A stretch of DNA of 64,000 bases from Phytophthora sp. 'mugwort' (taxonomy: Eukaryota > Oomycota > Peronosporomycetes > Peronosporales > Peronosporaceae), in the NCBI GenBank assembly GCA_033558025.1, contig JAUCEF010000008.1, positions 744,001 through 808,000 of the forward strand, given 5' to 3'. Positions 30,915 through 49,715 of the stretch are shown here, piece after piece (the stretch's first letter is position 1; each line of letters starts with the position of its first letter). Made by a program: the position numbers and the translations under genes. Below the pieces are notes generated by a model that searched no databases, was not told the DNA's origin, and saw only the letters and a list, made by a program, of their open reading frames with translations.

Positions 30915-33023
30915 TCAGGTCCCATGTCGTTCCGAAACTGCTGTCTCTCCTCCACGCTCAGATTCTTCATAGTCTGCCATCATATCCTTGTCAGTGGCAG
31001 CTCCCAGACCAAGCGGATTATTCGCTCCTTTCAGACGTAGCTCCAACTCATATAAAGTACTAGTGACGTGCGATACAGAGGACTCAGTATCCCGACGTCC
31101 ATAGTCTCCCTTTGTAACCCACTGCTCGAGATTATCCACGGCGTTCGCAGTCGAGGCGCTGCCGTTGGACTCAGTTCTCCTGCCTTCATGAAATGATTAA
31201 ACACGTGTGCCAGAACGTAACCCGTGCCATCGAGCGGATGTTCACGGAAAGGCAAGCACGAGCTGATCCAACCCCATCATCTTGAATAGCTCCATTGACG
31301 ACGGAACAGCAGACGGATCCGAGCTGGTGGGAAAGCCAAGAGCTGTATCCAGCGTCGTGTTGATAAATTTCTTGCAGTGAGCAGGATCATAGTCAATAAT
31401 TAAAGCGCCATACACCTGAGTTGGCCATTTCATACAGTAGCCGTAATGCATACAATCGCCATACATCGAGCATCGTCGCGCAAGGTCGTGAAAGTCTTCA
31501 GGCAAAAAATAGTCCAGAACATTAGACAACGAGATCGTGTACGGATGCATCAAAGCAATGCGTCTCAGGAGCTCCTGGTTCCCAGGGTCGTCATCATCAC
31601 GAACCGCCTTGATCACACCATACATCACGTCGATTGTCAACTTGTGGCATAACATTAACTCACGAAGACGCTGGAGATTCTCAAGAGTATGGATGACAAA
31701 CAGATTGACCACCGACAGTCGCCCCAATAATTGTTTCTTTTGTCTCTCCGCGTAGATTTCTATCAACGTCATAAAATCAACCGTATTAAACGCGACGTCT
31801 TCTTCGAGTGGTGGGGCACCCGACGGCACGTTCCATATCGTCACACTGCCAACTAGTGGTGTTGCTTTTGCCACATCTTGCTTGCTTTTTTTCTTTTTCC
31901 GTCTTTGTTTCTTTGGCCCCGAGTTTTGTACTATTTTTTTTGTAAAACACAAGCCAGCGTGTTCTTTTTCCAAAAGGTTTAAACCATGCGAAGATGCTCA
32001 AATTTCGCCAGTCAGCATATGCTGAACCAAATCGAGTCTATCAATCTTGCGACGAAAGCAGGCTGGTGCTCCAAGTGCCTTCTCATTATACCTCTCCATG
32101 TTGGAAAAGAACTCCGATCGCGCTTTCGCTGCAGATATCGTCTCTGTTGAAGCCCAGTGCTTCAAGTAAGAAACCACTTTAGGATTTTCTTATCTCCCAT
32201 GCAGCGAGTCCAACACGGTGATCAAACGCTTCCGAAAGTCAGCCAGAGTGGTGTCGCTCCATGTCGATGAAAGCCATACCTCCATCACGCTCGAGATGGA
32301 AATATCGGATGAGCCAAGCATTTGTGCCACAATTTTGCCATTGGCAACCGCAAACTCGCTCATCTCAATCCCTACAAATGTCAGAGGCCCAACACTGCTT
32401 GACGACGTCTCTTAAAAATCTTTGCCGACAGCAAATTACTGAAGTCATTAAAGCCAATAGCAACGTGAGTCGTTCCAAACACAACAATTGGCTGACCCTT
32501 TGGGAACCGACTGGCAAGGGCGTGCTGCCTCTCAAATTGCGGGAGATCCGGATCCACAAACCCATAAGCTCCAATCTCTACCAAATCTCCCGTCACATAT
32601 CCTCTAACAGCAAAGAAGACGACGCAATTGCGAAGAATGCGTCGTCAATAGCCACCCACCCACAGAGATATCTTCCTTTATGGATGGTGCCCACCACTTA
32701 TTCCCCTACCAATCATTGGCTTTAACGACGTCAACGACCTCATGTCGAGATTAGGCTTGGCATTTGTATTCGAGAAACTGATCTGCACTCCGTCCGGCTT
32801 GATCTGTCCAACATCGGCAAAGGCACCTCTGGGTCTCACGAATCGGGCCCACGCCTCCTTGGACCGTTTGACGAGCCCCACACGCGTGCGACTCTGCTGG
32901 GCCCGGTCCTGGTACTCGCCCACTTGGTCCATAGCGCTTTTGCATCAACTCGGCCTGTGCGTCTTCGGAGAGAAACGCCAGGAACTCCATCATCTTGGAC
33001 GGGTCGAAACCCGTAGGCAACAA
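30915..33023 (-). pseudogene. Host-type gene, broken (possible DUF4470-like family)
   Basis: Minus-strand segments from 33023 to 30915 appear to be one gene cut by at least four frame breaks. The N-terminal pieces (32751-33023 and 32678-32932) read SKMMEFLAFLSEDAQAELMQ, then an Arg/Lys-rich helix. The middle (32365-32596) includes FVDPDLPQFERQHALASRFP. The longest piece, 31973-31242 (243 residues), holds VGSVTIWNVPSGAPPLEED, TLENLQRLRELMLCHKL, SLSNVLDYFLPEDFHDLA and GDCMHYGYCMKWPTQVYG. The tail at 31139-30915 is polar. The SN.LDY and H.G..M.W motifs recall oomycete and fungal proteins annotated with a DUF4470/MYND-associated domain. That assignment is from memory of motif style and is weak. 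Function unknown. Confidence 0.5.
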
Positions 33024-37050: not shown

Positions 37051-39398
37051 AATTCGACCTTAGTGTAGACGATAGAGATCAGTTGAGCCCAGCGCTATGG
37101 CCTTGCGTAATTAGTCCTATGGAGGGTTAACACAACAAAGTTCAGCTTCTACGAGACAACGTCCGGATGGGCTCATTGATTGCAGCAGTTTGCAAATTGA
37201 GAGCAGACTCATGGCAGCGAAGGGCCTCCGCAAACTCTGTCGCACCAGTAGTTGCATCCGAAGGCAGAGGTCGGCGCATCATTTCTTTTTTCTCCAATGG
37301 TTTAACGCCATCAACTAAAACACATAGTCAAATACATAGTCCTCGAAACGCAAACAACAAGTATTAACCACATTTTAGACACGTCATTTTTTTTATTCTT
37401 TTTAATTTTTTTTAGAATCATGCGACGCAAACTGCAAGTCGTACTTGCTTCGACGTACTCGTCGTTCGTCTTCTTCGTTTTGCTCTTTCTCGAGCCGCTG
37501 TCATCACAACCCGCTCATTGTGGTCCCTCCTTCACCTAACTCAGGCTCCTGTAGTGACCTAGAACCGCACAACGTTGTGTTGCATACATTCATGTGGAGC
37601 CCAATACGCGAGCATGAGGTCAAGGCAGGGCGGCTCAGGCTGCTTAGGAACGTTGCCAGTAGCTGAGTGATCTTGGCGACAGGTCACCCACTTGTGGCGA
37701 AGCCATTTATTTAATCCGTATATGATATCGAACGTTACTCGTAAGTAAATACGAATGAAGATCAGCACCACCGCACCTTATCTTTGCATTGCGCGACTGA
37801 ATATGGCTTCTTGCCATCTATGCTGACAATAGTAGCGACACGGTTCCACACAGCACCGACCTCCACGTGGTTCCGCTCGCATGCAAACGAGTCCTTATCT
37901 GTGGCATATCTTTAAAGTAAAGAAACGTGTGAGAATCTTAATAGTGTTAGTGTGTGATCGTACAGCTTACCTCGCAGTGAACAGAGCCTTCGTTTTCCGC
38001 CGACCACAGTTCGGGTGCATTTTGCGGGGCGCCTACGCTTGGCTGGGGTACAGGCAGTGGGCTTGACGGTTCCTTCTTCCGGGACGACTGTCTCCACCGT
38101 GATCTGCCATACGAGGCCATCCTCCTGCACGTTCGGTTGTACCCTCGGCTGGACATCGGTGCCCCGACGCGCTGTTGCATCGGCGACGAGATGGTACGAG
38201 CTGCGAGGAGTGCCCCAGCATCCCCTGTGCATCATGAACGGCGAAGGAGCCACGAACTGCATTGAGGGCAACGCAGAAGTCTGTCGGGATGGAAGATCGA
38301 GGGTATTGAAGCCAAGAGTAACTCCTTCGGCCGACAGGACTCCTGTCATAGGAGCTCCTCCGTGGGAACGGTTCGGTGAAAATGAGTGGTGTAGTTCGAG
38401 TAAGGGAATAATTGACCGAGTTTGCGAGGGTATGGGCAGCCGCAATAAAACGCCCAGGCACCGGCACTCTGGGGACTGTCGCTGGGTTTATTGAGAACAC
38501 TTATCCCCACATCCAGACACAGGTGAAGAAACCGGGGCCTTAACGGAAGCAAAATGCTCCGTTTGAGCCAATTTAAAGATTTGATTTCGTGAAAGCCAAT
38601 CAGATCCTCAGATTTCAATGAAGCAGGTATGAAATTGAGGCCGACTAGCGATACATAACTCATTTTTTGCCATAAAATACCCTGTTTTCACCCCTTTTTT
38701 ATCGTGGTTTTTCCGTCTTTGCTGCCGTTCATGTAAAACTATGGATCTGTCAGTCTGTTATGGCGTTTACAATATGGATAAATCACACTTAGTAGTTTTT
38801 TTTTATCAGTTTGATGTCTCCTCCAATGGTTGTCTAATGAATAGGAGATGACATCCAAAGCTAAACTTTACGTTACTCTACAAATGCAATGATTGTACTA
38901 CGATTGCATAAGTGTTGGTCCACGCAGGATGCTCTTCCCGACTGTAGCCTACATAGATATTTGTCCTTAACTGAGTTACGACCGGCTGCGTCTTGTTTGA
39001 CAGTCGTCGAGTTCGGTGGATTCTTCGATAAATGTAGTAGGTACATGCAAAAAGACTACGAGGAAGCTGGCGCTTCATGGTCAATCCAAAGTGTGTTGAG
39101 TTCTAGTGAGTTAAATCCTTTATCCTTCCACTGCCAGGTCCTGTCGCTCGGCCTGGCGGTGGTTTCCTAAATCCTAGTGGTTTTGCCAGCTCGGCATCGC
39201 ATCACTTCGCGATGCCTTGTGAGTGGAAGGAGGCTTGTCGTTACCTCCCACCCTCCCACTGCAATACGTAGGAGACCGAGTGGTCTTGTACACTATATGA
39301 GTAGTGAGAGCTGGCACATTACGCCGGCAATGTTTTTCTTAGCATAATTTAGCATGAGAGTAGGGCTAACCGTTTCTAATGCAATGCAACGAGTTTGA
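37051..39398. other. No recognisable gene
   Basis: About 2.3 kb between the Harbinger relic and the viral remnant. The largest frames (37912-38445 minus, 177 codons; 38015-38494 plus, 159 codons; 38889-39170 plus) overlap one another and show no family signature. If the viral insertion was once longer, its missing replication genes could have lain here, but I see no helicase, polymerase or integrase motif. Confidence 0.4.
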
Positions 39399-39653
39399 CG
39401 ACGCAACCTCTTAACCACCTTAGAACAACAGAAAACACCATCGCTTCAGAAGGTAATTTTAAATGATCTCGTTTCATTAGAAGAGACAGTCGAGGGTCTC
39501 AACGAGACAACCTCTCAATCGCCTAAGAACACAAAGAGCGATTCAAGCATCATAGGCAACCACACTATCTGTCGAGAAGATTATATAAAGCAAAGATAGA
39601 ATTCAGTTGATCCTGAAGGATAAAGTATTATATATTCTCATAGCCCCATAAGA

Positions 39654-39764
39654 ATGTGTAAGTTCATCCTGAAAAACGGAAATGTTTGCAGCAAGGCTCC
39701 ATCGAGATCTTGTTGTCATAAATATTCTATAGTGGCGTCAAATGTTGAAAAGGCGAGAGAATGA
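39654..39764 (+). CDS. Small cysteine/histidine protein of the viral remnant
   Basis: A 36-codon frame beginning MCKFILKNGNVCSKAP and containing CCH further on. The C-x8-9-C...CCH spacing resembles the tiny zinc-binding domains common in eukaryotic DNA viruses. It overlaps the next small gene by four bases (ATGA), typical of dense viral coding. Too short to be sure; support is the motif plus the overlap and the viral neighbourhood. Confidence 0.4.
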   Translation: MCKFILKNGNVCSKAPSRSCCHKYSIVASNVEKARE

Positions 39765-39859
39765 TGCGTAAAAATTATAAAGCCCGACTTTACGATATTT
39801 CATGTCCTTGTGGATACGCCGGCAAACGGTGGAACTATGCCCATCATTTGTCAAACTAA
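39761..39859 (+). CDS. Small putative zinc-finger protein of the viral remnant
   Basis: A 32-codon frame with YDISCPCGYAGKRWNYAHHL, in which C-x-C and two histidines could bind one zinc ion. It starts at the ATG overlapping the stop of the preceding small gene. Viral and phage genomes often carry such CxC...H mini-fingers. Function unknown. Confidence 0.4.
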   Translation: MMRKNYKARLYDISCPCGYAGKRWNYAHHLSN

Positions 39860-40018
39860 GAGATATAAATCGTTGGCATCATCAATGCCTGAGTCTTTAC
39901 ATGGACATTCATGGAGATCGAAAACCGTAGAAGAATTTGACTGGGTACAAACCAACTCGAACTAATCATCGAATTGTTTTTTTGCTTCCCCGTCGCCATA
40001 AGTAAAAAGGTCATTGTT

Positions 40019-40327
40019 TTACATCAGCTCATCAATAGCAGGACACAGCTTCGGCGCCTCGGTGTCGAACTTGGATACACGTAGCCAATTGTAAATACTG
40101 TTCATTAATAGCAAATACTTGCTTTACTGACTTGCCCTTATACTTCCCGAAATTTACTAGGTACGATCCATCATCGGATCCATTTGCGAACTTACTCGCA
40201 GGAATGTAGCAATGTCCTCATCTAAATTGGGTTGATTACGAAGCCAGCGATAGTAGCTATGATCCTTTTCATACACCGTCTGGATAGAGTAGTCTTTGTA
40301 CTTGCCGAACGTAATAGTTGTGTCCAT
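40019..40327 (-). pseudogene. Viral gene with two ExoX-C-like repeats, frame-broken
   Basis: Just downstream of the major capsid gene, on the same strand. From the ATG at 40327 the first 35 codons read ITFGKYKDYSIQTVYEKDHSYYRWL, the pattern (FGKYKG.....V...D..Y..WL) of the small domain found at the C-terminus of exonuclease X-like proteins and as stand-alone viral proteins. The frame stops at 40157. In a shifted frame a second copy follows (VNFGKYKGKSVKQVFAINEQY), and after another shift WLRVSKFD and a stop at 40019. The protein was thus a tandem duplicate of the domain, about 100 residues long, now broken by two frameshifts. Its role is probably nucleic-acid related, but this is inferred. 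Confidence 0.6.
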
Positions 40328-40374
40328 GGTATCTATATAGATACCTACCAGACTTTATCAAAATATTAATTTAT

Positions 40375-42073
40375 TTATGCAGTAGTAAAATCGAGAACCT
40401 CACCCGTTAGACAATCGTAGGAGAGCTCTTGCTCACCACAACCAATACAAGCATGTTTGGTGCCCTGACATCCAGCATTGGCACCCTGAACCTGGATCGA
40501 CTGTGACACATCTCGCTCCGTTAGGCGGCTAACGTCAGCAACGAGAACACGGTTAGTTAGCGACCACGTCTGATAGTCAAGAAGACCATTCACCAGCTCA
40601 GGCATCAGACCACTGTTATCGAAGCGATCTTAGCGATTTCGTTAGTGAAGTGGTGGAAATCGTAGTCATGACTGATATCAAAGATCTGCTGGCGACCGAT
40701 ACGTTAAAATTGCGGATACTCGAACCGGGATGAAGCCTCCAAGGTGCACTATCGAAAGGACTCTGGAACACTTGTACAGCAACAGAAGCAAAGCTACCGG
40801 TCTGCTCAGCAAATGGTAGTAGAATAACATATTTAGCATTCTTAAGAGATGCCGATAGCTGGAGATCAAATGCAGCATTAAGCTGAGTCGATTGCTTACC
40901 AGTACCGCGCGCTGGTAGAACCATTGAGCATAGCAATTATTATATCGAACCTTCTTCACAGGCTTGAGATGATTGCCTGCGGTTTCACAAGATGTACGAA
41001 ACGGTACATAGAGACGAGCAGTAGTGAATGGCATGTAAGTACCATCGATAACAGGCTCAAGGGCATGACTACAGCACCCCAAGAAATACTGAATCCAGCA
41101 GAAACAGCAAGAACACCAGCCATAGGAATACCGGTGGAAGAAGCTGAAACCATTACATGACAGGTATTGCCACTCGCAAGAGTAGCGCTGGCTACCGACA
41201 TACCCTTCGCCGCATCTAGCGATAGTAGAAGTACCCTGATTGACTCTGAAGCGTAGGCGGTATGCGGATTAGCCATTGAATCGAGTTCCTTAAGATAGGG
41301 TGGAGGTCTGTTAGCTTTAGCATGTAGTTCCAAGTTCCCATAATTCCATTAGCAGTAGCTACACCAGATACGAAAGCACCACGAGCGGTTTGGTTCGAGA
41401 TTGTGGTAAAGCCGCGGCAGCACATCGAAGGCCACGACGTAGAGAAATCAGAACCATCATTAGGAGGGTTCGACAACAGACGCTTTACGAGACCATCGTT
41501 AGGGATGGATGCACCGCCAGAGGGACCGGTGGGAGCAAACGAAGGTGAGAACGCAGTAATATTTGTGTATCCATCTCCAGTAGTCGAGCTCGTAGCAGAG
41601 CTGTACAAAGCGGACTGGGCGGCATCCGGGTAAAGGAACGACTCAGCACCATGTTTTTTCGACATACTGAGGACTGTAGCTAGTCTGAGCGCGGACATTG
41701 TTCCAAAACAGCTTGTAATTAGCCATCGAGACAATTGTCTTGCCATTGAGCTCCAGAGACATACTATCGATGACATTACAGTTGCCGCACTTAAACGTAG
41801 CACAGAAACGATTGGCAGCAGCGGTTTCAGCAGTAGCACCATTCTTCATCGAGACCTTGTATGGAAGCATGATGTAGCCATCACGAAGGCAAGCAAACCT
41901 TTCGGAGCTGCTAAGCTGAGCAGTTGCGTCGATAGTAATAACACCATTTTGATAAGATTCTTAGTGAAGATCGATTACAAATCGGTACTCGCTTGCCAGA
42001 AGATACCTTGATCTTCGGGTCGCTCGTGAGCTAGCTCTGATACAAAGATTGGTCGGAGTTGAGTTTCACTCAT
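40375..42073 (-). pseudogene. Major capsid protein (double jelly-roll), frame-broken
   Basis: The start is the ATG at 42073 (MSETQLRPIFVSELAHE), followed by a stop at about 41975. The protein continues in other frames: NGVITIDATAQLSSSERF, then the stretches at 41870-41643, 41842-41216, 41333-40956, 41082-40678 and 40605-40375. Features typical of PLV/virophage major capsids are the early RFACLRDGYIMLPYKV block, long beta-rich polar segments (GDGYTNITAFSPSFAPTG), and the C-terminal block with LLDYQTWSLTNRVLVADVSRL and a final acidic LTGEVLDF. The total, about 560 codons, fits PLV capsids. At least five frame breaks. The start lies close to a 36-bp hairpin that separates it from the divergent protease. 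Family call from motif order; structure prediction would decide. Confidence 0.72.
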
Positions 42074-42109
42074 CGTTGAATCTATATCGTTTCTAATATA
42101 CTTTCGTCG

Positions 42110-42195
42110 AATGGGTTTGATAATGTCGCTCAATATATTTAATTTAAATAAATTTAAATAAATTAAATATATTGAGCGACATTATCAAACCCATT
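42110..42195. repeat. Perfect 36-bp inverted repeat between capsid and protease genes
   Basis: Arms 42110-42145 and 42160-42195 are exact reverse complements around a 14-base AT loop. The right arm coincides with the presumed first codons of the protease (LSDIIKP), so the left arm looks like an inverted duplicate of coding sequence. It may also act as a terminator or origin-like hairpin. Confidence 0.9.
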
Positions 42196-42599
42196 ACGAG
42201 TGATCATGATCTGATTGAACTCGCGAAAAAATAGTAGTACATCTAGATGATATCTACGAATCGAGTGAAATAACGAAGCCTCTCTCGAAGAAGGGTTCAT
42301 TTCTGATTCTACTACGACCGCCTAATCTTGATGTAGGACACTGACAGGCTGTTCATAATAACGAATTCTTTGATAGTGTGGGCGAGGCAGCCCCAACAAA
42401 GTATGGGATCGCGAGATATAACCCCAAGCAATACCAAAGTGCATATGGGGATTACTGTGGAATATGGTGTATGCTCTGGATTTACCTCAAGCAGTATAAG
42501 AAATCAAGCATTTTCAAAGATGAAATATTTAAATTTGACTATTCTTTAGTTCAGAAAATATGCATTAGTCATATATCGCGAATTAACGATCTCCAGTGA
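42190..42599 (+). pseudogene. Adenovirus-type maturation cysteine protease, broken
   Basis: Such proteases (adenain/Ulp1-like clan CE) cleave virion proteins during maturation. The N-terminal helix (DHDLIELAKK, near 42202-42228) and the following DDIYESSEITKPLSKKGSF lie in adjacent frames. The catalytic His block reads GH followed by TGA at 42342-42344, exactly where the family has GHW, so a W-to-stop change is the simplest reading. The frame then continues with NNEFFDSVGEAAP (the acidic residue block) and QYQSAYGDYCGIWCMLWIYL, containing the catalytic Cys, to a stop at 42599. One frameshift (about 42228) and one nonsense codon inactivate it. It is followed immediately by the PX-like gene. 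Confidence 0.72.
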
Positions 42600-43316
42600 T
42601 ATTCCAGGTCCCAAGCTGACCAAAGCTCTCAAGACTGGTAAGCTAAGTCTGACTGCTGACCAGCTCAAGGATAGCGGCTCCATTATCCATCTTCACCCAG
42701 CCTCTTATGAGAAGGCACTCAAGGCTCGCAAGGCAGGTCGCGGCGTGCGTCTTGACATCACCAAGCATGAAATTAAGAAGGGATACAAGTGAGCACAAGG
42801 CGGTTCGATTTGGTCGAATGTTTGGGGAGGTATCAATTCTGCTTTCAAGCTCGCTAAGGATCCAGGTATATTGTCGCACGCTGCTGACGTTGCTATCCCC
42901 GCTCTTGCAACCGCGCTCGGAACTCTACAGGGTACTATCCCAGCAAGAGCTGCAATCGGTTCCATGACTGGCATCGGAGTTTATGATTCTGATAGTGATA
43001 AGGAAGGAGGACGCGTATCTATGGCTGATGTGAAAAAGGGGACAAAGCGTGCTCTTTTGTATGTTTAAACGTGGAGTTGTTCTAACCGATGTAGTCGATG
43101 GTGGCGAGAAATACCTTCTGTCTAAGGCAGCTAAACCCGAGCACGAAAATCTAATCAAGTCTATTCGTTGGTGAAGTCCGTCGTCGTTATGGAGTAGGTG
43201 TTGCCGAGCCAAAGGGAAAGAAATTCGTAAAGGGTTTGCAAGAAGCTAAGGATCACATGGCTAAGATCCGTGCAATGAGAAAGAAGCCTATGGCCGCTGG
43301 ATCATTTCGATTATAA
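42600..43316 (+). pseudogene. PX-like virion protein, broken
   Basis: The frame from 42601 reads GPKLTKALKTGKLSLTADQL, then IHLHPASYEKALKARKAGRG and ITKHEIKKGYK, a TGA at 42790-42792, and continues GGSIWSNVWGGINSAFKLAKD with a GALGT-like alanine-rich segment, ending at 43068. Two further frames carry the rest (KYLLSKAAKPEHENLI; then KGKKFVKGLQEAKDH and RAMRKKPMAAGSFRL) to a stop at 43316. A leucine-rich N-terminus with HLHP, an amphipathic W/G-rich helix and a basic C-terminus ending GSFRL match the PX-type (adenovirus pX-related) virion proteins of Polintons and PLVs. Three breaks. The family name is from motif recall. Confidence 0.55.
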
Positions 43317-43368
43317 CGATCCACCTTATTCTAAAAACTAAAGTTTTTGTATAATATATATATATACC

Positions 43369-43910
43369 ATGATCGGCTACATTTATCGTATTCAACACAT
43401 CCAGTCTGACCTATGCTACGTTGGAAGCACGTTCAATCAAGTCAAGTATCGATGGCAGCAACATAAATCTGTATTCAAAATAATGGCTTAATCATAATGG
43501 ATCATGTGCCGCAGTAATTTATCCGTTTATGAGAGATCACGGCGTTGATCAATTCAAATACTTTCTTATTAAAGAATATGATGTAATCGATCGTGTTCAT
43601 CTGTTCATCTGATGCATATGAGACGCTTTGGATCAGGAAACTGAAAGCTTGTAATAAGAGCTTACCATTGGCAATCAAAAAGCTTACCGATAAAGCGGTC
43701 TATATCAGTGCTCGTGAATATAGGTGTGCCAAGGTTAGAGCATATGCAGCAGCAAACAAAGACCTAATCGCACACCGAACCAAAACGTACCGCGAAACCA
43801 GCAAGGAGACTATTAAAGCTAAGAAGGCGGAATCATTCCAATGCGAATGTGGTGGGCGATGGCGTAAAGGTCATGGAAAACCACGACATGATCGGACAAA
43901 AAACATCTAG
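43369..43910 (+). pseudogene. GIY-YIG endonuclease, broken
   Basis: The ATG at 43369 is preceded by an AT-rich run. MIGYIYRIQHIQSDLCYVGST is the GIY-YIG signature (here GYIY...CYVG), followed by the conserved arginine block YRWQQH. After a frame change near 43488 come the AVIYPFMRDHGVDQFKYFLI helix and KEYDVIDR. The frame is then shifted by an 8-bp tandem duplication (gttcatct, 43595-43602 and 43603-43610). The last part (43593-43910) includes the YETLWIRKL catalytic-glutamate block, a charged helix, and a C-terminal CECGGRWRKGHGKPRH zinc-finger-like end. Stand-alone GIY-YIG nucleases of this shape are common in PLVs and giant viruses. At least two breaks. It is convergent with the minor capsid gene, 35 bases apart. 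Confidence 0.85.
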
Positions 43911-43945
43911 ACCGGCTAGTCAGGTCATCATAAGCATTAGCCAGC

Positions 43946-44828
43946 TTACTGTTTTTGTCTCAGCAACAGCATGATCGAGACCGAAGTATCGCGAACGATT
44001 ACCTTCTTGTCGTTTTGGTTGTAGATATTGACAGTGATCGTTGATCGAGAACCGTTGTGGCAGTTCATTCACGCATATTGACTGGGTTTGTACGATATCA
44101 GCTTACCGATTTCAGCATCACCTCTATCGAACGCACTGACAATATCACCAGATGCAACGTACTCATTTTTGATCAAATCACATCGAACGATGTATGAACT
44201 GGTGGGGTGAATCTGAGAGATGATGTGAGATAGCTGAGCACTGGCAACTGTCGCTGAGGCAGCAGGGTACGTACCTGCAGTCAGACCAACTACCTTTCCA
44301 AGCTCAGCATTATCTATGATAAGATGAGGGGCGTGAGTGGTAGTAGGCAATCCAGTACCACCAGCTGAATATAGTCCAGTAGCTGGTCTTGTCCAGTACC
44401 CCCGAGAATAGGCAAAGTTGTGGCGTCGGACAGAAATCAAGCTGGCATGCGTAAAAAAAAAAATTACACGCTGTTTTCATTCAGTTTTAGGTAGAATACA
44501 TTGTTTCCAGATGGGTCGATCAAATATTCTCCAGCATTAACAAGAGCTGTCTGAATGCTGCGATTGATACAATCATAGCAGTAAATACCATCCGCAAGAT
44601 TGATGCTGAATTAGAGATAGTAGCCGCCGCTGGAACGTCAAGTTTAAGGCTTATGTTGTGGAATTGCATCGCGTCAATTATATATTCCGAGTTGTACATG
44701 CTAATGCTTTGGATTGCGCAAACAACATCGCGGAAGTCAGCGGCTGAGTCAGGGAACGAGTATTTCCAAGTCGAATTATATCCATCCTGGGTTAAGTTGG
44801 AACTGTCGATTTTCAGAAAGTTCGCCAT
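43946..44828 (-). pseudogene. Minor capsid (penton-like) protein, frame-broken
   Basis: It starts at the ATG at 44828: FLKIDSSNLTQDGYNSTWKYSFPD resembles the virion-entry strand of single-jelly-roll minor capsids of PLVs and virophages. It is followed by the IQSISMYNSEYIID stretch. After a frame change near 44600 it reads GIYCYDCINRSIQTALVNAG, the strand-turn-helix pattern with an adjacent GEYLID. An 11-base A run (44455-44465) accompanies another break. The frame 44440-44069 follows (APHLIIDNAELGKVVGLTAG). The last frame ends at 43946 with ITVNIYNQNDKKVIVRDTSVSIMLLL, a typical terminal strand pair. About 290 codons, as expected. Located divergently from the GIY-YIG end and one base after the upstream small gene. 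Confidence 0.62.
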
Positions 44829-44829
44829 T

Positions 44830-45006
44830 TTAATAGTATATGATGCTAAGCATTTTTCTGATTGATAAATTGGAATTACTCATCCATCTTGTAATAGGTC
44901 TATCAAAGTTGTACCTGATTTGTTCCTTCACGGAGTCGATGAACAACAGCTGTCCTTTCCGTTCAGTGGCTTTGTTGTAGTAATAGTTGATCGATCGATC
45001 GATCAT
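44830..45006 (-). CDS. Small gene upstream of the minor capsid gene
   Basis: An intact 58-codon frame (ATG at 45006, stop TAA at 44830) containing NYYYNKATERKGQLLFID and RYNFDRPITRWMSN. Its stop codon ends one base before the ATG of the minor capsid gene, which suggests co-expression. The ATG falls in a gatcgatcgatc tract, so the true start may be further upstream in a lost frame. I do not recognise the family. Confidence 0.45.
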   Translation of the reverse strand: MIDRSINYYYNKATERKGQLLFIDSVKEQIRYNFDRPITRWMSNSNLSIRKMLSIIYY

Positions 45007-45053
45007 CTACACCCTTGATATTGATGATTATGCACAGTGTAGAGGACATTGTA

Positions 45054-45409
45054 TCATCTGTGGGTGCACATAGTCAGATTCCACTGTGGGAATCTAGCCG
45101 GTGTGCGTATCAGTCGCAGGTGTGTGCATCGGTCGCAAAATTCTTCAGCATATCCACAGACAAAGAGGGATTCAGATTGTATGTTTACTAAACAACAATA
45201 CTTGTGTATTGTATTGGCGAAAACTGGTGCCTTTGGAAATTCTACGTGGCCGGTCTCTGTCGGACAGGAGACCCTCTCGGCTCGCTTATGAAGATACCAT
45301 ATGCATAAATGGATCATGCTTCTCGTACTGCTGTTTCGCCTCGGCTGTGTTCGCGTTTTGCTCACGGAGAGACGGCTCACCGGAAGGCGAAAGTGCTGGT
45401 TGCTCTGAC
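45054..45409 (-). other. Possible gene fragment between virus and LINE
   Basis: A frame from the ATG at 45409 (polar start, about 40 codons to a stop) is followed in another frame (45380-45054) by a cysteine-containing stretch (VCGYAEEFCDRCTHL). It could be one more broken gene of the viral insert or an unrelated host fragment. No family recognised. Confidence 0.3.
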
Positions 45410-45756
45410 ATTTTGGTACTCGAAAGATTCTATCGACGCGTAGTTAACAAATATACATTACACTTTAAGGCTAGTAAGCAACCTATTTAGCTACCCTACT
45501 TGGCTATTTGGGATCGATTTGGGTCATGTGGACCCAAAACTTGGGTACGAAGTATCCAATTGGTGTCGAAAAAGGTCCATTTTCTCGAAAGTGGGTACCC
45601 TGAAAGACCCATTTCAGTGTCCAGGAAGAAACTGGTGGACGTCCAGAGACGTCTCTGGGCCGAGTTGGACATTTGCAGGACCTTTCCGAAAGGGTCTATA
45701 CAAAAACCAAGCTTAGCCCGATGAACCAGGTGGTGGTGAGCCACCTACTTCTAGTG

Positions 45757-45829
45757 AGCTCAGATAGCTCGGCTGGTTAAGCATCCAGTGTCGGACGGAA
45801 GCGGCCAGGGTTCAATCCCCGGGCCGACC
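45757..45829 (+). other. tRNA-like segment in LINE tail (copy B)
   Basis: The counterpart of 1646-1718: A-box-like tagctcggctggttaag and B-box-like ggttcaatccc, again opposite to the LINE coding strand. It has a few differences from copy A, for example ctcgg for ctcag in the A box, which would weaken polymerase III recognition. Confidence 0.5.
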
Positions 45830-46361
45830 AGACCTTTCGGACGATAGTTGGGATTTGGCCGCGAAGGTTGGGATATGGGCTTGTGACTGGACTGGTGGTC
45901 TTGGGGGCTACTGGGCGCCGTCTCATGGCTGTAGGCCGGGAAGCACGGTTAGACCCGGTAGTTCTTGAGATTGCTTGACCGGTCACTTCAGTAGGAGAGA
46001 TGCAGGTCGTGGTTTAGAGGGGCAAAGCCTCCCAGTCGTCGTCTCATGGGCTGTACGCCTGGCAGTACGCGCGGCTCGGGAGTATGGCGCCGATCTAGAC
46101 CTCGATCCAAAGGTAGTCCAGTGATGTCGTGCATGCCATAACACGCGTAAGCGTCTGTGCAGCGTGTCGCGTTCTTCACCCGCCTGTCCGCCGTGGGGCC
46201 CCGCCTGGGTTCAAAAATCACACCGCCTTCGGGTACAGCAGACATCAGGCAACGCCCACTAAGCGATCGGCAAATGGAGCCGGGAACTTGGCGTATGGCG
46301 TGAAAGTGGTGGAGAGTGAAGCCAGTAATGGCCGAGCACGCCGGCGGCGGATTGTAAGATA

Positions 46362-49300
46362 TCAGGATAAGCCTTGAGCTTGTGGCCTTACCTTTGGGCC
46401 ACTGGCGTCTCTTCCCGGCGGCGGTTCAACATGGCCGCGGGAAAGGAGCCCTGCTGACGGGTTTCCACCCCGCGATCGCTTGGATCTGCAGTCGTGAAAG
46501 GGCGCCAACGCTCCGGACGTCTCTTCCCTGTCGTGGTTCAACATGCCCGCGAGTAAGGAGTCCCACGGACGGGCTTCCGCCTCGTGGCCGCTTGGGTCAT
46601 TGGCGTCGAAGGGTGTCGACACAAACAGTCCTCGCAATAAGGTGTGTAGTTGCCTACTCACCTGCGAGGACTGTCTTATTGCTTGCGCCTGGGTTGCCTG
46701 CCATAAGGCAGCAACATGAAGGTCAATCAGGGCGTGCACCCGAGTCTTGATGCCGGTGAGACTTGGTTCATACTCATGGAAGCGGATGTCATTGTGGTGC
46801 GTCCATAGGCAGCGAAGTACCACAACTCTCACTATGTGGAAGACCGCAAAGAGGCTGTAACCAAAGTCCTTTTTGGCTCGGGGCGTAGGCATGATGTCCG
46901 CGAAGTAGACCACAGTCGCCCGCTCAATGGAAGACTCAAACCACTGCTGGAACACCTCAAGCCATTCCGCCCATACGGCTGCCGCAAAGTCACAATACTA
47001 AAAGAGGTGGGAGACGTTTCAATGACTCCACACCCATGACGGCAGTGGGTCATAGCGCCTTGCACGTGCTGCAACCTAAAGCCCACCCAAAGAGCGTTGT
47101 GCTGAAGTCTGGACAGCAAGTCCGCGTTCACTGGTAGTACGTGCTTGTTCATCTTTAGGTCCCTGCCCCATACCTCTGCGAGAGGCGCTTGTTCAAGGCC
47201 AAGTGCAGTCGTTGGCAGGCCGGGTACCTTATACTGAACCAGGTGCTTGCGTATTAGCGACACCGTGAGATCAGCGACTTCATAGCCACTGAAGCTCCAA
47301 GTATGGAGAGCGCAGCCGTAGCGTGGCTTGGGGCGGGGCCCAATGGGCATGTTGGCCAACGGTCGTAACAGCGAGTCAATCTTATTTAAGAAAGATCCGC
47401 AGAAGCTCACGCTGTTAGCACGCCTAGGCTGGCCATCCCACGGATGACTTGAGATAGCTTGGCGGCTTGAGGCGGGTATCCACTAAGCTCATACAAGTCA
47501 AATATCCGATAAACCTTTAAGCGAATAAGGTCTTGGACAATGCCCAGGCTTACGGCTCGCAGGGTCTTGGGCGTCTTGGTTGCAGTCGTGATATCCACAT
47601 TGTCCAGCAGCGGCGTTGTCAACTTGTCAAACTGGTCATGTTGCGAGTGATCTTGGGGCGCAGTTTGGTGTTCCAAAGGAAGAGAACATGGTGCCAATAC
47701 AAACCAAGCGGTCTCCGTCATCTTAGCCGTCGAGACACCACATGATGAGGGCTGTTCCAGACCGGCACGTACAGGATGTCAAAGTCGCGTCCCCAAGGTT
47801 TCATATCGGAGTCAAACAGCTTAATGACTAGGGCGGCCCATGAGGGTACATCATCCGGTGACTGGCGTACGGCCATGAGCAGCTTGCAGAGCATGTGTAG
47901 TTGGAGTCCCTCGATCATCGTTTTCACAGGCGTTAAGCCGAGGCCGCCCCATGTGCATGGGCAACGTCCACCAAGCTCGGGGCACGATGTTGACGTAGAA
48001 GACTGGGTCATGGACCGTACTATCATGTCCTGGACTTGGTCTTGGAAACTAGTTTCAGGTATGTAGCAGACACTGGCCGTGTACCAGAGAACAGGCAAGA
48101 TGATCTGTTGTAGATGGACCACTTGTCCTCGCAGAGTGCGTGCTCGGTACTTCCACAGTGAACACCTTGTCTACATGTCCGCCAATATGTGCTGTAGCCG
48201 TGCCGCGTCTGTGAGATAGGGCCCGTAGTATATACCAAGCGGTTTGGCCGAGTCGTTGTCCCAACAACCTTTAGTCCCAATTGCTGTAGTGCCTCACGGA
48301 TGCTGTCGATTTCACTGTTCCAGGGGCGGAACGGCAGCACCACAGTCTTGTTCTTGTTCAGCTCCATGCCCGATGCCTCACAGAAGAGATCCACCAAGTC
48401 CAGTAGCCGCTGAGTATCCCTCAGGTCCCTTAGTAGTCCAGTACAGTCATCAGCAAAGCTGATAACTGTATGGACCACCGAAGGGTCTCCACACCGAAGT
48501 CCAGCATCCTTCATCTTGGCGCGAATCAAGTTCAGCAAAGGTTCTGCGTAAAGCACGAACAGACCCGGGGAGTGAGGGTCTCCTTGCCGCACGCCTCTCC
48601 CTAATTCAAAGGGCGAAAGTGGGCTACCGTTGAATAGTAGCGCCACCAAAGTCCCAGGAAACATCACGCGTACCCAGCGACGAAACACTTCGCCGAAGCG
48701 GAAGTGCTCGAGGATCATATCAAGGGCATCCCACACCACGCTATCGAAGGCCTTGGCAAAATCAAGCAAGATAACACCAGCCACCGCTCATCGTCTTCAT
48801 ACACTTTCATGAGTGGTTGAAGCCGTAGGTGAGCAGACAAATGTCGCGCCCAGACAAGAAGCCATACTGGTCAGAGAATAGGAGACTATCTAAGACAGTT
48901 CCCAGACGGTATGCCAGTAACTTGGTCCCCAGTTTGCCATCGACGTTGGTGAGGGTAATGGGTCTGTAGTTCCCAGGCTCTTTACGTCTCCCTTCTTATA
49001 TAGCAAGCAGAGTTGGCCGCGATGCTGGAACTTAGACATCGTGCCTTTCTCCAGTTGAGCCGCGTAGACAATCTCCAGGATACGTTTCCAAAGCGGCACA
49101 TCAGTTAGGTAATAGGCCAGGGCTAACCCATCGGGTCCTGGTGCCTTCCCCGACGACGTATGCTTGATAGCCCAGTAGAAGCCGTTTGCTGTGAGTGGAC
49201 TGTCAAGATAGGCAGCTTGCTTCAGCGTCAGATGCTTGGTCGTCTGTTCAAGGATCTGGGCCAGCTTGATGCGATCCCATTTCAGCTTGTCATGATGGAA

Positions 49301-49715
49301 CTCCCTTGAAGGTGAACGATAGATCCTGGACCAAAACTGGTTGAACTCCTGGCACATGCCTTCCAACCCTCCGGCGAATTGACAGGAATCGGAGTGTTGC
49401 GCAGGATCTGAGGCGGTCAGACGAAGTACTTGGTACCTCGCTCAAAATCATGGAGGTCGGAGGCAAACTTCTTTTTCGATGCATAGAACTTTTTCTCCTT
49501 CATCTTGACCTCCAATAGTGCCCTCTTCTCAGTCAGCCGCTGGCGTTGATCATCAGTAGACTTCGTCGCTTACCGGTGCTGCAGATCATTGATTTCCAGG
49601 TGCAGTTCCTCAAGTTCGGGCTGGCGAGCATTCTTCCGGGATTCGAATAACTCATGCAGGAAGATATTGTCGCGACGCTTGTGCTCGTCGAGTAGGCAGC
49701 CCGGGTTGTAGTGGG
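46362..49715 (-). pseudogene. LINE reverse transcriptase and zinc-binding tail
   Basis: In coding order: a linker helix region (near 49570-49700, RRDNIFLHELFESRKNARQ); 49366-48890, with the RT finger region (SGKAPGPDGLALAYYL, QHRGQLCLLYKKGD); 48784-48023, the palm with VILLDFAKAFDSVVW, RQGDPHSPGLFVLYAEPL and the catalytic FADDC; then the thumb with ELNKNKT. The C-terminal region (47721-46832) ends in the HCRHGC zinc-binding block, and the last part is 46955-46362. FADD is the variant of the YADD catalytic motif seen in LINEs. There are breaks between 48890 and 48784, around 48100 and 47720, and near 46980. It is needed for target-primed reverse transcription in an active element; this copy cannot be translated as one protein. 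Confidence 0.88.

Follow-up and report, generated by a model that had tools for sequence, protein, structure and literature searches.

The 64,000-nt stretch of the Phytophthora sp. 'mugwort' genome analyzed here (contig C8, positions 744001-808000; hereafter the window) contains, between window positions 39300 and 45024, a decayed and partial Polinton-like virus (PLV) of the Maverick/Polinton type that represents approximately the left third of the element. We consider it highly probable that a Gossevirus-type PLV with Maverick ends, integrated by an rve integrase and spread mainly as a capsid-making virus, left at this locus a copy that came under no constraint, was truncated and is now an inert fossil. 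An earlier note, made from the sequence of the window, had proposed an inactivated, partial PLV at this locus, and the proposal is borne out by the recovery of its genes, by their synteny with relatives in the same genome and by the double jelly roll predicted for the major capsid protein (MCP) of one such relative.

The open reading frame (ORF) and six-frame listings contain only short pieces at 39.4-45.0 kb. Seven genes were nonetheless recovered by tblastn, using as queries the uninterrupted ORFs of relatives identified in genome searches over the 86.3-Mb assembly (154 contigs) (Table 1). Each member of the gene set initially proposed (MCP, protease, PX-like protein, GIY-YIG nuclease and minor capsid protein, or mCP) was found over most of its length, and the packaging ATPase, which had been reported as missing, is represented by residues 178-213 of its 217. 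The recovered MCP spans residues 7-572 in five overlapping matches with 44-85% identity, the lowest of which extends across a frame change; its two longest clean pieces are 82% and 85% identical to the uninterrupted relative L013. The PF01541 match corresponds to the N-terminal GIY-YIG part, at 43342-43488, and is the sole one among ten window pieces to pass the Pfam curated cut-off; the MCP and protease pieces matched no Pfam family by sequence alone. Among the relatives, the ExoX-like ORF of L013 matches PF20600 at 9.7e-22 and an ATPase matches PF04665 (Pox_A32) at 2.4e-8. The protease alignment (A3) shows the pattern GHW...D...Q...YCG, the residues of which we take to be catalytic, and neither the window pieces nor the relatives have a Pfam match for this gene. 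The PX-like label retains the naming of the earlier note. Searches against PHROGs returned only weak matches of the broken pieces (E of 0.024 and above), with homing endonucleases among those of the GIY-YIG piece. A genome check with PF02902 gave at least 99 matches (150 of 194 candidates scored), which do not list the window and are uninformative on this locus.

Table 1. Features of the element and its right-hand surroundings (window positions; a dot marks features without strand).
Feature	Position	Strand	Evidence
Truncated PLV/Maverick-type element that retains its left end and lacks its right side	39300..45024	.	Extents shared with 29 same-genome copies; four right flanks run past 45024
Left terminal inverted repeat, AGTAGT...	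39300..39328	+	29-nt motif; 0 matches in 100 shuffles; marks ends of other copies
Decayed small gene(s), two or more frames	39399..39962	+	tblastn to copy L023, 55-82% identity; weaker to others
ExoX-like C-terminal domain gene (two repeats), interrupted	40022..40351	-	tblastn 55% to L013 ORF, residues 1-111, one match; open in two frames
MCP pseudogene, several frames	40378..42073	-	tblastn to relative; 18 frame-shifting indels versus uninterrupted relative
Near-perfect 86-bp palindrome	42110..42195	.	Arms of 43 nt, 95% complementary; inverted duplication of protease gene start
Adenovirus/Ulp1-type cysteine protease pseudogene	42148..42546	+	tblastn to L014 ORF, residues 5-138, three matches; alignment A3
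PX-like gene, broken	42574..43313	+	tblastn to L014 ORF, residues 3-250, three matches; no Pfam family
GIY-YIG endonuclease gene, broken	43369..43916	+	PF01541, 8.5e-7; tblastn residues 1-140 of 145 in three matches; site map
mCP (penton-like) pseudogene	43949..44828	-	tblastn to L012 ORF, residues 1-291, three matches; label by position and synteny
A32-like packaging ATPase gene, 3' end	44893..45000	-	tblastn 86%, residues 178-213 of 217 (36 residues)
DNA between break and LINE-type repeat	45025..45444	.	Of 174 candidates (40 scored), only the self-match covers it; matches to the repeat begin at query 416-425
Neighboring high-copy LINE-type retroelement, non-viral, right limit approximate	45445..49366	-	39 other listed matches of 93-95% over ~45445-46100; RVT_1 in ORF 48026-48784

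The left limit of the element is defined by a terminal inverted repeat beginning with AGT. The window sequence from 39300 reads AGTAGTGAGAGCTGGCACATTACGCCGGC, and 16 of the 29 fetched copies start matching at 39295-39314, which places the start upstream of the 39399 originally given. A degenerate form of this end motif was identified at 65 genome sites versus 0 for the reversed control, and the 12-bp flanks immediately outside the left-end motif are unlike between copies. Terminal inverted repeats are present at both ends in nine fetched left-right pairs of relatives, seven of which (15.4 to 19.4 kb, from terminal-site coordinates) show, with the reverse-complement motif, a perfect 6-bp target-site duplication; the two pairs without it are C14:2771207-2790030 and C18:634059-655525. 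Since published Maverick ends include (AGT)2//(ACT)2 with 6-bp duplications (PMC8097293, in the part of that paper available), the ends of this family are of Maverick type. The statement that terminal repeats are missing thus holds for the right repeat, which is lost together with any view of the duplication in the window copy, and not for the left one. The G+C content is 0.42-0.48 across the six kilobases from 39001 to 45000.

The element belongs to a large family of copies in the same genome. A DNA search with 39399-45006, in which 35 of 195 candidates were scored, gave at least 82 matching stretches, more than one of which may come from a single copy; the best non-self match among the candidates scored is locus L010 (C18:885657), at 88% identity. 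With the L013 MCP as query, at least 95 matches were obtained (76 of 500 candidates scored), nine of which span residues 1-572. The MCP of the window itself is absent from these 95, so the scored set is incomplete; both counts are lower bounds. The order ExoX, MCP(-), protease(+), PX(+), [GIY-YIG(+)], mCP(-), ATPase(-) is found in the 29 relatives and the window, wherever the fetched stretch reaches and the gene is detected. In four fetched right flanks of relatives lie the ATPase gene and ORFs for a fibre-like protein with a Peptidase_S74 domain, for an rve-like integrase carrying a chromodomain and for a polymerase-like protein. The DNA_pol_B_2 family has 12 matches in the genome, some of them in or beside elements: the one at C5:4196735 is flanked by a pair of facing terminal sites that are 25.8 kb apart, and the one at C18:3237860 lies ~8 kb rightward of the L020 match. 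Relatives that keep the ATPase, the rve-like integrase and paired terminal repeats, such as the earlier note had suggested looking for in other assemblies, are present among the same-genome copies. The past infection it had proposed is supported as to viral origin and not as an isolated event, the window copy being one of many of the same family. Beyond this genome, the L013 MCP has 189 homologues with E <=1e-3 among 7996 scored candidates; the organism names among the 120 listed are only Phytophthora or Plasmopara, the remainder bearing none, which gives indirect support for an oomycete, probably Phytophthora, host; P. infestans homologues reach up to 80% identity among the matches listed.

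The absence of a double jelly roll had been named beforehand as the result that would speak against a viral capsid. When structure prediction was run on the MCP of L013, the capsid of this relative was predicted to be a double jelly roll like those of virophage capsids, with fold matches to 3j26, 6g45, PBCV-1 and PRD1 P3. The mCP structure model failed, and the label of that gene consequently rests on synteny.

On L013 codon numbering, the window MCP has 18 frame-shifting indels, the most of the 30 copies (the next has 11). The tree pairs the window with L010 (support 1.000), and, taking L010 as sister and L013 as outgroup, window-private MCP substitutions number 20, 19 and 22 at codon positions 1, 2 and 3 of 1539 sites (~4%); the changes private to L010 number 17, 16 and 21. 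This even distribution over codon positions indicates that the window copy decayed neutrally after insertion. The same flat pattern appears within a young burst of copies (L014, L015, L016, L019 and L022) that lie 1.3-1.8% from L013 in MCP (10/13/8 for L014 and 6/11/8 for L016), very young pairs having too few changes to judge codon bias. Differences between subfamilies, by contrast, fall mainly at third positions (24/12/95 for L013-L025, 26/8/138 for L013-L012 and 63/35/238 for L013-L018). Private changes were counted in 26 of the 30 copies, with L018, L023, L028 and L030 dropped for lack of a usable outgroup or because of zero distance. The third-position bias between subfamilies and its absence in the window and the young burst indicate that constraint acted on the MCP along the deeper branches and was lifted once a copy had inserted. 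This selection pattern, in turn, points to spread of the family through capsids or virions, as capsid selection in vertebrate Mavericks has likewise been read (PMC8097293, available part).

Matching to the window stops at 45024 in 8 of the 29 copies and at 45022 in L017; this break lies slightly beyond the end previously placed at 45006. In longer stretches, L010 stops at 45017 and L023 at 45022. L014, L018 and L020 stop earlier, and in other copies the fetched stretch or match finishes before the break. Past it, four fetched right flanks match one another: two do so for 10 kb at 97%, one for 6.8 kb and one piecewise at 77-96%. The S74, rve and polymerase ORFs of the relatives have no tblastn match in the 64-kb window, which agrees with the claim that replication genes are missing; the absence of integrase and polymerase is attributable to the truncation. 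A LINE insertion at about 45.45 kb had been offered as the cutter. The LINE-type repeat begins ~420 bp past the break, however, and is hence rejected as the direct cut of the element. Elsewhere, the genome contains 10 partial matches to the left flank, at 67-80%.

Taken in sequence, a Gossevirus-type PLV with Maverick ends would have inserted here via its own rve integrase, a route that we infer for this copy, whose right end is gone. Viruses of the family would have proliferated in the lineage at a time when selection still acted on their capsid genes, presumably mainly as capsid-making viruses. After insertion this copy was free of constraint. Approximately its right two thirds was lost, starting within the ATPase gene and including the right repeat, and it gained many frameshifts, stops and one palindromic duplication; it is now an inert fossil.

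Several results weigh against parts of this interpretation. The L013 MCP model has a middling mean pLDDT of 70.9, its best Foldseek match reaches TM-scores of 0.49/0.54 at 9.1 A only, and the MCP profile (A1) searched against PDB sequences gave nine matches with E of 0.15-0.75 and no capsid chain. The mCP model is unusable (pLDDT 30.1, from an alignment of 8 rows, several of them partial). The indel count is rough, since L029, L031 and L032, which have uninterrupted MCP frames, still score 4, 2 and 2, and third-position bias does not split the copies cleanly, with intermediate terminal branches in L011, L035 and L033 (0.54, 0.43 and 0.43 of changes). The relative's integrase matches rve (2.4e-7) and Chromo (2.1e-5) slightly below the curated cut-offs, and the 746-aa polymerase-like ORF of L039 has by itself no Pfam, NCBIfam or PDB match. 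Finally, scans of IMG/VR for free relatives with A1 and P0118 gave 14 and 6 pattern stretches, none of which was confirmed.

The last of these results, together with the complete copies bearing terminal repeats, 6-bp duplications and an rve-like integrase, and with the burst of near-identical copies, would fit a Maverick DNA transposon that spreads within the genome with no role for virions and with the capsid genes as passengers. We regard this as unlikely, given that capsid differences among subfamilies are mainly third-position, the pattern to be expected were spread to depend on capsids, and that six of the at least 95 MCP matches span residues 1-572 without a stop. The same morphogenetic gene set, and the presence of the Sputnik and mavirus MCPs among the closest solved folds, could also suggest an endogenous virophage (Maveriviricetes) instead of a PLV, but the MCP profile has no sequence match to a PDB capsid chain and Bellas and Sommaruga (PMC7805220, available part) report that BLASTP reveals no homology of virophages to the Gossevirus type of MCP, making a virophage very improbable.

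Two further explanations concern the fate of the copy rather than its origin. Collapsed copies and long-read errors may fake stops in PLVs (PMC10120064, available part), so that the breaks might be assembly errors in an intact virus. Against this, six near-identical, recent copies of the same assembly, L013 among them, have 0-4 frame-shifting MCP indels versus 18 in the window; the window-private changes comprise, beyond indels, substitutions that are flat over codon positions; and the relatives' right-hand ORFs are without a match in the window. An intact virus at this locus is accordingly given very little credence. The persistence of long recognizable gene stretches could, alternatively, reflect retention by the host of a domesticated capsid or protease gene, yet the six-frame listing shows every recognized gene to be either interrupted or cut, and the MCP substitution pattern is neutral, and we hold domestication to be the most improbable of these explanations.

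The spacer between MCP and protease, which is 113 bp in the window versus 47-63 bp in 15 of the 29 copies (14 unmeasurable), contains the palindrome listed in Table 1. In the 15 measured copies the spacer holds one arm only, which is the protease gene start; the palindrome is therefore best read as a private inverted duplication and no viral element, and its interpretation as a fused terminal-repeat pair or an origin is rejected.

The position of the GIY-YIG gene varies across the family. It lies between PX and mCP in five of the 30 copies (the window, L010, L011, L018 and L023), left of MCP in L012 (939-1454) and L025, where it sits between ExoX and MCP, and in L021 (ExoX undetected), and right of mCP in L020 (5406-5771), in a stretch where the ATPase is undetected. 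None was detected in the other 21 copies, several of which are cut short. A 2024 preprint (PMC11071308) describes GIY-YIG domains in PLV helicases, and Phytophthora and terms beginning with oomycet- are absent from its main text, as available; in the portion of the PLV/GIY-YIG and gossevirus/oomycete literature covered, no mention of GIY-YIG genes at alternate capsid-block sites was met, and no novelty is claimed. It is conceivable, if doubtful, that the family is still a live capsid-forming virus and that free-standing GIY-YIG homing nucleases move between three capsid-block gaps of co-resident copies as a drive between virus copies.

Other observations concern the relatives and their surroundings. 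The strand of the ExoX-like gene beside MCP differs between copies, minus in one set and plus in another (local inversion or replacement), and a weak, short ExoX-like match lies outside the element at window positions 31324-31383 (20 aa, 45%, E 0.002). L039:743-2803 and L041:767-2677 encode a protein of 636-686 aa that varies between copies and that in L039 carries a Peptidase_S74 chaperone domain, a domain that occurs in self-trimming trimeric fibres. One two-ended copy with a 6-bp duplication (L013:95-775, C8:~430600) starts inside an ABC-transporter (PDR-like) frame (ABC_tran, 9.1e-10). At C12:2332454-2526146, 15 same-strand terminal-repeat sites have a regular, alternating spacing of 13.15/13.27 kb and then of 13.9/15.4 kb, and similar partial MCP matches recur at intervals of 26.4 or 29.3 kb, forming a large tandem array with PLV pieces; ribosomal DNA was rejected as its identity, as two 3-kb stretches examined had no Rfam match.

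Elements of this kind are already in print, according to the available parts of the relevant papers. Bellas and Sommaruga (2021, PMC7805220) described 15 complete oomycete elements with terminal repeats and, in some, 5-7 bp duplications, and placed the previously missing MCP of the P. infestans Polinton in the Gossevirus group; Bellas et al. (2023, PMC10120064) counted up to 299 MCP copies per oomycete genome, nearly always of the Gossevirus type; and a 2021 P. parasitica paper (PMC8204020) reported many Polinton pieces on one contig. The family probably belongs to the Gossevirus (GKS1) group, MCP clade PC_0014, by way of the published placing of the P. infestans MCP. It shares with the oomycete PLVs of that group, as far as described, the host, a double-jelly-roll MCP (here predicted), an ATPase, a putative mCP and cysteine protease, terminal repeats with short target-site duplications, high copy number and, in some elements, a candidate pPolB and rve integrase, the window copy differing in being truncated and pseudogenised. 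With vertebrate Maverick/Polinton elements (PMC8097293) it shares (AGT)2...(ACT)2 ends, 6-bp duplications, purifying selection on capsid genes and a majority of degraded copies; unlike them, it has an MCP type that PMC7805220 assigns to another group, GIY-YIG genes between the capsid genes and, in relatives, an S74 fibre-like protein. The mavirus and Sputnik virophages are alike in predicted MCP fold and unlike in sequence, with ~10-12% identity in fold alignments and no sequence-level match.

Taken alone, this locus adds a further fossil to a known group of viruses. It is useful as a clearly dead copy beside uninterrupted relatives within a contiguous assembly: the contrast indicates selection on the capsid gene during diversification of the family and drift after copies had become fixed, which bears on whether oomycete Polintons are transposons or viruses.
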